A DNA stretch of 30,840 bases from a virus: the IMG/VR virus record IMGVR_UViG_3300030117_003437, positions 940-31,779 of that record; one strand, given 5' to 3'. Both the position numbers and the translations under genes were made by a program. How positions within the stretch are numbered: position 1 is the first letter of the stretch; the number at the start of each line of letters is the position of its first letter. Below, piece by piece: positions 15,001 through 17,870 of the stretch. The notes beneath the pieces were generated by a model. That model had not been told where the DNA came from. It did no database searches and saw only the letters and a list, made by a program, of their open reading frames with translations.

Positions 15001-17870
15001 ATAATTTAAATCAATTCATAGCTGCTGAGAAAATAACAAAAGATATAAATCCTGTATATGGTAGCATACAAAAATTAAAAGCTGGGTGGGGACAAGGTGG
15101 TGATTTAATTGCTTTGTGCGAAGATAGAGTTTTGAGAATATTAGCTAATAAAGACGCTTTATATAACGCCGACGGAAATACTAATATAACTTCTACTAAT
15201 AGAGTTTTAGGAACAGCAACTCCTTATACTGGTGAATATGGAATATCTAAAAATCCAGAATCATTTGCCTCAGAATCTTATAGAGCATATTTTACAGATA
15301 AAGTTAGAGGTACTGTCATGAGATTATCTAATGATGGCCTAACACCTATATCTGACCACGGTATGAAAGATTGGTTTAGAGATCATTTAAAATTAAGTAA
15401 TAAGTTAACAGGTAGTTATGATGACAAAAAAGATGAATACAATATTACTATAAATGATATTTCTAAAACTGTTACATTTAAAGAAGACGTAAGAGGATGG
15501 GTTAGTTTTAAATCATTTGTAACTAATAACGGTGTTAGTTGTGCTAATGAATATTATACTTTTAAAAATGGTAATTTATGGAAACATAACCATGACGTAC
15601 CGGGTAATAGAAATACTTTTTATGGTAACTATGTTAATTCCACTTTTGATGTTATTTTTAACGATGCCCCTGGTTCTGTTAAATCTTTTCAAACAATAAA
15701 TTACGAGGGTAGTAGTTCAAAAGTTACGCAAAGAAATGATGATGAACAATATTACAATAATTTTGCATGGCAAACAAAGCAAGGTTGGTATGTTGATTCT
15801 ATAACTACAAATAAAGAATCAGGAGATATTTATGAGTTTATAGAAAAAGAAGGAAAATGGTTTAATTACATACGTGGAAAAGAGATTGTTGTTGGTGGAG
15901 CTGATGATGGGATAATTATGAATACCGATGGTAGTTCTAGCTTTAGACAGGCTAGTTTCGCAATTCAAGGGCTAGGAATCACAGGTGGCGTGAGTGCTAT
16001 AGGAGTTATTTCAGGTTGTACAGATGCGACAGCAAATAATTATGATCCAACGGCTAATGATGATGATGGTTCTTGCACATATGATATTGTTATAGAAGGA
16101 TGTATGGAGTCAACAGCTGATAATTACGATGCAACCGCAACGGCAGATGATGGTTCGTGTTTTTGGCAAGGATGTACAAATCCTACTGGAAATGCTATTA
16201 ATCCAACTACTTTCCCTAACGAAGCTTACACTTATAATAATGGTGGTAATATTATTAATGTAGGTTGTATTGAAGCAGTGCCTGGATGTACGGATGCAAC
16301 AGCATTTAATTATGACGCAACGGCCAACGTAAGCGATGGTTCATGTTATCCAGTTATTGAGGGTTGCTTAGGTACACCGGGTGGTGGTGTTTTAGCAGAA
16401 AACGCAACTAATTTTAATAATGGTAACGGACAACTTAGTGGTGTCCTTGAATCTGATGTTAACACGGATAATGGTAGTTGTTTTTGGTCTTGGTGCGCGG
16501 ATTCAAATGATCAAAATTATAACGCTGCATTAGTAGCAGATATATTAGCTGAAAGTAATGGGTATCCATTTGATGCTAATGCGGGAGGAGGTACTGATAC
16601 TACTAGTGCTTGCTTTACTATTCTTGGATGTATGGATGGTGACGCAACAGAATACGGGTTAGGAGGTTTTGGTACTCCAGGAGATGGTTTTGAGGCGAAT
16701 AATTATGCTGGTCCAAATAATACTATCAATTTTAATCCTCCTGCTAATACGGATGATGGTTCTTGTTTGTATACTACTTCTTGCTATTGGTGTGATATGA
16801 CAAATGGTCAAGTTCAATCTAGTAGTAGTACTAATAACGTTACACCAGATACATGTGATAACAACACAGTAACAGCAGCGTTTGCACAATTAAATTATGT
16901 TGGTGATGCGTGGTTTGGTCTTAATCCAGGAGAACCTTGTATTAGTGGATGTATGGATTCTACAGCTGGTGACAATCCTGATATTAATGGATTTTGCGCT
17001 GATGGTGTCACTAACGTTGGTTATCCTAATAATGGTGGTTGTCCAGGTGCTGGATATTATGCCTCAAATCATGATCCATCTGCAACATGGGATTCAATGG
17101 ACCAAGGTGGACCATTTTTTAGTTGCGTATACCCAGGGTGTACGGATCCTTTAGCAACTAATTATGATGCTAATGCTACTGTAGATGATGGTAGTTGTAC
17201 TCTTATAACCGGTTGTACTTGCAATGGTACTAATCTTAATGGAGCTGGAGTTGTTAACGATTGTTTCGGCGCTGGTATTCCAGCTGAAAACTATGATCCA
17301 AATGCAGTTAGTGGAGACAATGGTGGTGACGATAGTTGTACGTGGGCTAGTCAATGTTATCTCTGTTCCCCTGGTGATCATTATGTAAATGTTACTAGTA
17401 TATCAGGTAATTCTCAGCCTGGTTGGTGTGATGCGAATGGACCGTGGAAGAGTGAGAATTACGCTAATAATAATTACGTATATCCTAATGGAATATTCCC
17501 GGCGCAATGGCAAAGCGCGGCACAGGACGCCCCTTGTCGAAATGGCTGTATGGATGGCAATGCTGCTGGAATAGTAGATCCGGCTACTGGCCTTGCTCAA
17601 GCTACTAACTACGATCCTAACGCAACTTGGGATTCCGATTTATGGCCAAATGCTCATAGTTTCCCTAATAACACTGGGCAATGTAGTTATGTCGGTTGTA
17701 TAGATCCAAATGCAACCAACTACTGGTCGCATGCAGATTCTTTATATGGCACAGCCTGCGCGAACTGTTGTGATGGTTGTATGGATCAAAGTGCTAATAA
17801 TTACTGTTCTCAATGTGTAACAGATCTTTCTAACGCCTGTGTTGGTGGAGGTGGGCCTGGTGGAGCTTAA
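9054..17870 (+). CDS. Giant tail protein (nozzle/muzzle-like) with C-terminal cysteine repeats
   Basis: At 2938 residues it is one of the two largest genes here. The N-terminus ('[20 protein letters not shown]', then '[10 protein letters not shown]') is a strong signature of a large tail protein family in marine and crAss-like phages. Its layout is reminiscent of the T7 gp12 / P22 gp10 class that forms the tail nozzle, though homology is not shown. Further blocks lie at about 494-530 ('[20 protein letters not shown]'), about 950-1000 ('[18 protein letters not shown]') and about 2061-2115 ('[20 protein letters not shown]', '[14 protein letters not shown]'), consistent with a propeller built from distant parts with long insertions. 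From residue 2321 to near the end lies a run of cysteine repeats (separate entry), ending in a Gly-rich tip. No signal peptide is present. Likely role: DNA exit channel plus host-facing adhesion surface. Confidence 0.75.
   Translation: [2938 protein letters not shown]
16014..17835 (+). repeat. Tandem GCTD...DDGSC cysteine repeats in the tail protein
   Basis: Residues 2321-2927 of the giant tail protein. Four full copies of the pattern GCTDxxAxNYD followed by DDGSC begin at residues 2321, 2349, 2411 and 2695. Degenerate or expanded copies start at 2525, 2632, 2831, 2881 and 2908, with spacers of varied length. The Asp-rich part resembles calcium-binding thrombospondin type 3-like loops, and the cysteine pair of each unit could form a disulfide. 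Such repeats are familiar from large secreted proteins of marine Bacteroidetes. Confidence 0.85.

Follow-up and report, generated by a model that had tools for sequence, protein, structure and literature searches.

What does a chain of short cysteine-bearing repeats, of a type otherwise familiar from secreted proteins of marine Bacteroidota, do at the end of a phage tail protein? The question is raised by a 30,840-nucleotide stretch (hereafter the window) that covers positions 940 to 31,779 of the IMG/VR virus record IMGVR_UViG_3300030117_003437, a metagenomic fragment of 31,779 bases. A sequence-only reading of the window had noted GCTDxxAxNYD...DDGSC units throughout the last ~600 residues of a 2938-residue tail protein, and had proposed that these units expanded and diversified in the phage and might mimic host surface proteins, bind calcium, or mediate adhesion. 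The analysis presented here favours the view that the array is a modular, disulfide-stabilised arm with which the tail tip would contact its host, and shows that related phages carry other kinds of extension at the same end of the same protein.

The muzzle protein and its cysteine-unit array

Judged by homology and gene order, the array sits on the muzzle, the tail-tip protein, of a crass-type flavophage, which makes the earlier description as a phage tail protein more exact. Residues 2184-2275 match the Pfam family PF25729 (crAss_MUZ_C) with 29.3 bits against a cut-off of 27, the 2938-residue protein matches phrog_14478 among the PHROG profiles (E 1.7e-127), and it is homologous to structural proteins of Cellulophaga, Flavobacterium, Maribacter, and Tenacibaculum phages. 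The identification is made because PF25729 lies above its cut-off and the portal, capsid, and ring genes stand in order: the PHROG matches along the window run phrog_6681, 6547, 13704, 14543, 13977, and 14478, which corresponds to terminase, portal, capsid, rings, and muzzle, with the terminase end, the portal gene, the probable capsid gene, and two probable ring genes all upstream of the muzzle gene. The nearest isolates are flavophages of the same four host genera, and a tblastn search with the portal protein at E<1e-5 matched only flavophages (e.g. Callevirus, Elemovirus, phi13:2); the link to the crassviruses is the muzzle domain PF25729. The phicrAss001 muzzle forms a tail-tip hexamer that is thought to contact the cell surface (PMC10172136).

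The conserved core of the muzzle ends in a QGLG motif whose Q and G are invariant in an alignment of 12 sequences, and relatives without an extension terminate 10-30 amino acids past QGxG. In the window, a C-terminal extension of 630 residues begins right after QGLG, and the array starts at exactly the position that had been read from the sequence, 16014. The extension holds 42 cysteines versus 13 in the 2308-residue core, and one lysine and one arginine, residues that together make up 7.2% of the core. A hidden Markov model (HMM) of the unit, with 21 positions and 141 seed units, found exactly four full units in the window protein at 31-38 bits and ~8 partial units in its tail at 0.6-15.7 bits, while the best score over 500 residue shuffles of the tail was 6.1 bits. 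Because three of the window units are among the seeds, the window scores are slightly favoured, an effect that is negligible beside their margin over the shuffles. The earlier count of four near-canonical and several expanded units agrees with these values, and the full 21-residue unit, GCTDxxAxNYDxxAxxDDGSC with both cysteines, is present in four copies and also occurs in secreted Bacteroidota proteins.

These repeats are real but old. The other three canonical units share 70-72% DNA identity with the first, and no coding array was detected at the DNA level in the window by Tandem Repeats Finder, which is why the units are not regarded as recent duplicates and why local recent duplication was rejected as their origin.

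The extension matched no Pfam family at E<=0.01 (one non-significant match, 0.16, was to a non-BACON family), a BACON domain was not found in the array with Pfam, and no Pfam or NCBIfam model covers the cysteine unit. There was likewise no NCBIfam match in the extension, including to TIGR04183, the sorting domain of the type IX secretion system (T9SS), and the N-terminus of the protein is that of a muzzle. Calcium binding had been one of the functions suggested earlier; the extension showed no match to the Pfam calcium-binding repeats (thrombospondin type 3 or EGF-like).

Predicted structure of the unit

An AlphaFold model of the 290-residue array of a related viral locus (L020; related loci are numbered L) had a mean predicted local distance difference test score (pLDDT) of 83 and a predicted template modelling score (pTM) of 0.34. 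The beads of this array are thus predicted to be locally ordered, with an overall shape that the model does not fix. For the first units of the window the mean pLDDT was 66, i.e. medium confidence, with ~90 for the first canonical unit. Human MPEG1/perforin-2 in the PDB holds one unit, which scores 33.5 bits against the unit model, and the predicted L020 unit superposes on MPEG1 at 0.5 Å over 24 residues, with a weak Foldseek E-value (2.8) because the unit is very short. The MPEG1 unit has been described as a small folded linker and postulated to be EGF-like (PMC7593815), and MPEG1 offers a structural template for an unnamed, abundant extracellular cysteine unit. The top PDB profile match, an F-box/LRR protein, was rejected as compositional: its 174-residue alignment had low posterior values and did not keep the cysteine pairs of the unit.

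Extensions and end domain among related phages

Scanning with the muzzle core yielded 58 related viral loci; the queries were window peptides, so this sample is not unbiased. At least one full unit was present in 15 of the 58, carrying 1 to 15 units, such that repeat number, which the sequence-only reading had suggested comparing among relatives, ranges from 0 to 15 across related muzzles. Other C-terminal extensions of the muzzle contained fn3 (four tails), LRR_4 (L051), SprB (PF13573, L058), and Bact_surface_Ig-like (PF16403, one relative). The muzzles of L040, L041, and L047 end in long threonine-rich runs (PTTTTTTTTTT) that resemble a glycosylation-type linker.

The profile phrog_18548 matches both muzzle residues 2137-2223 and the small open reading frame (ORF) just after the array, a homologue of the end domain of the isolates' muzzles. 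This end domain is fused to the muzzle in the isolates phi38:1, elemoC, and Panino, and in 13 contigs, and is a separate gene 4-29 bp downstream of the array in 13 of 13 testable loci with full units. On the simplest interpretation, extensions entered between the core and the end domain and thereby split the gene, with the direction of change taken from the isolates.

Between the window and its repeat-bearing relatives, core identity is mostly 61-74% (one at 35%) and tail identity 24-32% over long matches, and in the 12-sequence alignment the cysteine positions are invariant while the remainder diverges. Core identity and tail score were uncorrelated over 55 pairs (rho -0.04), which is weak evidence of exchange as the core identities span a narrow range. 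Ranked among 720 permutations of their order, the window's first six segments were colinear with L007, L008, and L028 (ranks 5, 3, and 7), while L004 and L005, the nearest by core, were not colinear with the window tail (ranks 445 and 462). On a core tree of 28 rows the repeat state was clustered, needing three changes, two of which are forced by well-supported branches. Taken at the sequence level, this suggests that extensions are exchanged between phages and diverge fast. The proposed expansion and diversification in the phage therefore holds in that array length and content vary between related phages, but it was not recent in the window phage, because the units are only ~70% identical in DNA and the first of them are colinear with the divergent L007, L008, and L028.

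The cysteine unit outside this phage

A scan of prokaryotic genomes returned 24 unit loci, nearly all from Bacteroidota (Flavobacteriales, Crocinitomicaceae, Saprospiraceae) and three from Neomarinimicrobiota, and many of the host ORFs had signal-peptide-like starts or secretion-type ends. The unit was matched in 94 of 199 sampled genomes of one Bacteroidota order, in 3 of 296 genomes of an even sample of that order's phylum, and in 11 of 149 genomes of the phylum Neomarinimicrobiota, and single host genomes carry >100 matches. Among 50,697 phage records, 15 matched the canonical array of L020, all of them cyanophage-type and mostly with weak E-values; two that were inspected have 2-3 units in a structural-type protein. 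These copies surfaced only with the L020 array as query, and tblastn of the whole window tail against the same records gave no match. To judge from these sequences, the unit is an extracellular bead, broadly distributed and very common in one part of the Bacteroidota. The earlier label of host-type repeats is apt as far as secreted Bacteroidota proteins are concerned, where the unit is abundant rather than absent, and too narrow in view of Neomarinimicrobiota, cyanophage structural proteins, and human MPEG1; widespread occurrence in phages of unrelated hosts was not found. A search for published work on the DDGSC motif found no relevant paper.

A tree of single units had been suggested as a way of telling host from phage copies. 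Unit similarities were compared instead, and they were nearly equal whether the other unit came from the same protein (0.602), from another muzzle (0.596), or from a host (0.580); units of 21 residues are too short and too constrained, and the comparison cannot separate host from phage origin.

Lysine and arginine are scarce in all repeat regions, with a median of 0.4% in 19 host ORFs and 0.7% in 40 viral non-muzzle ORFs, and 0-2.3% in muzzle tails. Such scarcity would make these regions poor substrates for trypsin-like proteases.

A probable host-contact arm and its alternatives

A host-contact arm at the tail tip, modular and stabilised by disulfides, is probably what the array represents. 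The extension would hang in six copies from the end of the conserved muzzle core, with each unit of ~21-26 residues forming a small, independently folded bead that is probably disulfide-closed, and with the beads joined into a spacer that is flexible or extended. Canonical units would serve as the spacer, and the expanded units, or the FN3, LRR, SprB, and Ig-like modules of relatives, would probably make the contacts with receptors or glycans. The array lies between the muzzle core and the end domain of the isolates, the latter now encoded by the next gene, and the acidic arm would reach and grip the host surface while remaining changeable. A contact role is favoured because of the modular turnover, including SprB, LRR, and FN3 modules in relatives, and turnover that is faster in the extension than in the core is as expected of a part tracking changing host surfaces.

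Several points weigh against this arm. Its binding role is inferred only, as are surface exposure in the window virion, the hexameric state, and the disulfides. The inspected isolated relatives have no such array, the Foldseek value for the MPEG1 match is weak, and the narrow span of core identities limits the case for exchange. A reverse transcriptase (RVT_1) was found in 0 of 17 records, which are fragments, so that it may lie elsewhere; variation driven by a diversity-generating retroelement is without support.

Among the alternatives, homotypic mimicry survives best, although it is unlikely: here the arm would act as a decoy or piggy-back ligand, its likeness to host repeat proteins letting it dock into their surface layer or bind the partner that anchors them. 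It draws on the marine Bacteroidota order that is so rich in secreted repeat proteins, on the SprB adhesin repeat of one relative, and on other viral contigs whose secreted repeat proteins bear T9SS sorting tails, such that infected cell surfaces may carry repeats. Nevertheless, the units are no closer to host units than to phage units, cyanophages use the unit as well and their hosts were not shown to carry it, and a partner is not known.

It is quite unlikely that the units act purely as a spacer or stabiliser, lengthening or stiffening the tail tip through disulfides and perhaps calcium, or shielding it from trypsin-like proteases through the absence of lysine and arginine. The acidic, nearly lysine- and arginine-free composition of phage, host, and other viral copies would fit, as would the folded linker of MPEG1 and the position of the unit between domains in cyanophage structural proteins. 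What speaks against a mere spacer is that content varies as well as length, that relatives have FN3, LRR, or SprB modules, and that the expanded units have specific sequences and conserved positions.

That host-derived coding DNA was fused to the muzzle end and kept as a harmless passenger is very improbable: relatives and isolates live without the array and its distal end is degenerate in the window, but open frames of ~600-950 amino acids are kept in many divergent phages, the cysteines are invariant in the 12-sequence alignment amid divergence elsewhere, and the proximal units are colinear. An assembly chimera of a host and a phage contig can practically be dismissed, being refuted by independent contigs that share muzzle motif, units, and next gene: 15 related loci have full units after the same motif, and the same gene follows wherever downstream sequence exists.

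A broader proposal is doubtful when all its parts are taken together: that the muzzle C-terminus is a plug-in site for adhesin modules (cysteine units, SprB, LRR, FN3) exchanged between phages and hosts, that phages bind their hosts via copies of the hosts' surface-layer proteins, and that the same gene pool exports repeat proteins through the host T9SS. How crass-type phages bind their receptors is poorly understood. If the modular host-contact site is real, host range in a large group of marine phages could be read from one short region, and these phages would be building an adsorption part out of the repertoire that also supplies their hosts' surface proteins.

Secreted repeat proteins on other viral contigs and further features

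At least 86 repeat ORFs were found on 80 sampled viral stretches; among the matches listed, 4 were muzzles and ~37 appeared secreted when judged crudely. Of 10 C-termini of viral repeat ORFs tested, 7 scored above the NCBIfam cut-off for the T9SS type A sorting domain TIGR04183. T9SS substrates encoded by phages could cover or modify the surface of the infected host, and these secreted proteins are a separate observation that may merit more attention. Some of the contigs with secreted repeat ORFs could be host DNA misfiled as viral. The repeat ORF of L129, which has a signal-peptide-like start, is regarded as phage-borne because it lies among genes for a holin (phrog_3427), an endolysin (phrog_894), and a structural protein (phrog_15100); its tail had no match to the T9SS sorting domain. 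A viral ORF of 1476 amino acids on the minus strand of L112 combines collagen-like GPTGPTG repeats with several cysteine units.

Downstream in the window, a giant ORF (22495-30840, at least 2782 amino acids) runs off the end, in the place of a cargo or ejection protein. It had no PHROG match; read by eye, a stretch VYDFDETLAYS...VFILTARHQ resembles a haloacid dehalogenase (HAD)-type phosphatase.

Table 1. Features of the window, followed by repeat proteins on other viral contigs (positions on the respective contig).
Feature	Position	Strand	Basis or remark
Portal protein	573..2993	+	phrog_6547, E 4e-151; 40.5% identical to Elemovirus portal
Probable major capsid protein	4262..5773	+	phrog_13704, virion structural protein, E 9e-93; capsid role inferred from position
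Two probable ring/tail-barrel protein genes	6938-7675, 7680-9050	+	phrog_14543, phrog_13977, virion structural proteins; ring role inferred from position
Muzzle (tail-tip/nozzle) protein gene, 2938 aa	9054..17870	+	PF25729, phrog_14478, flavophage structural homologues
Conserved crass muzzle C-terminal domain, aa 2184-2275	15603..15878	+	Pfam match
QGLG motif, end of conserved muzzle core, aa 2305-2308	15966..15977	+	12-sequence alignment
C-terminal extension, 630 aa, 42 Cys, 1 Lys, 1 Arg	15978..17867	+	
Canonical unit 1, aa 2321-2341	16014..16076	+	31.8 bits
Canonical unit 2, aa 2349-2369	16098..16160	+	30.9 bits
Expanded/degenerate unit GCTNPTGN...	16170..16283	+	Alignment; same position and sequence type in L007, L008, L028
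Canonical unit, aa 2411-2431	16284..16346	+	33.9 bits
Expanded-unit block (GCLG..., WCADSND..., GCMDGDA..., GCMDSTAG..., GCPGAG...)	16362..17135	+	Sequence, partial HMM matches
Canonical unit, aa 2695-2715	17136..17198	+	38.1 bits
Distal block of degenerate/expanded units and Cys-rich end	17211..17867	+	Partial HMM matches at aa 2744, 2849, 2881, 2908
Small gene, 126 aa, homologue of isolates' muzzle end domain	17891..18271	+	phrog_18548; separate ORF just after array
Secreted viral Cys-unit proteins, T9SS sorting group	L104 4144-8022; L135 4539-8609 (-); L127, L146, L120, L121, L126		
L129 repeat ORF with signal-peptide-like start	8669-10849	-	Lies with 5812-6207, 7398-7973, 2-2611

Comparison with known systems

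A cysteine-unit array on the muzzle C-terminus, a separated end domain, and a swap of adhesin modules at this site were not found in the open-access papers searched. Muzzle length variation is already known, and host-shared BACON arrays in crAss-like tail-associated proteins are a direct precedent. The crassvirus muzzle, gp44 in phicrAss001, is known to differ in length through insertions in its crass and IG2 regions (Bayfield 2023, PMC10172136). The window muzzle is homologous to gp44 and likewise has PF25729 near its C-terminal end, but its variation is a 630-residue extension past the conserved end, with the terminal domain of the isolates in a separate gene.

MPEG1/perforin-2 (PDB 6u23, 6u2j, 6u2k) shares the unit itself, as the HMM score and the fit of the L020 prediction indicate, but this animal immune protein has a single unit linking its MACPF and MABP domains. 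The cyanophages (Kyanoviridae) S-CAM3, with gp232, and Marine virus AG-345-P14 also have units in a structural protein; there, the run is short, is preceded by an N-terminal domain and followed by a beta-rich region, and belongs to an unrelated backbone protein.

The BACON arrays of crAss-like tail proteins, for which host binding has been proposed, show a conserved unit order in some lineages and horizontal transfer in others (de Jonge 2019, PMC6949934). The window array resembles them as a tandem domain shared with Bacteroidota proteins on the tail protein of a phage related to the crAss-like phages, and it differs from them in its 21-26-residue cysteine unit without a Pfam model, in its marine origin, and in its place on the muzzle C-terminus, where it is interchangeable with other adhesin-type modules.

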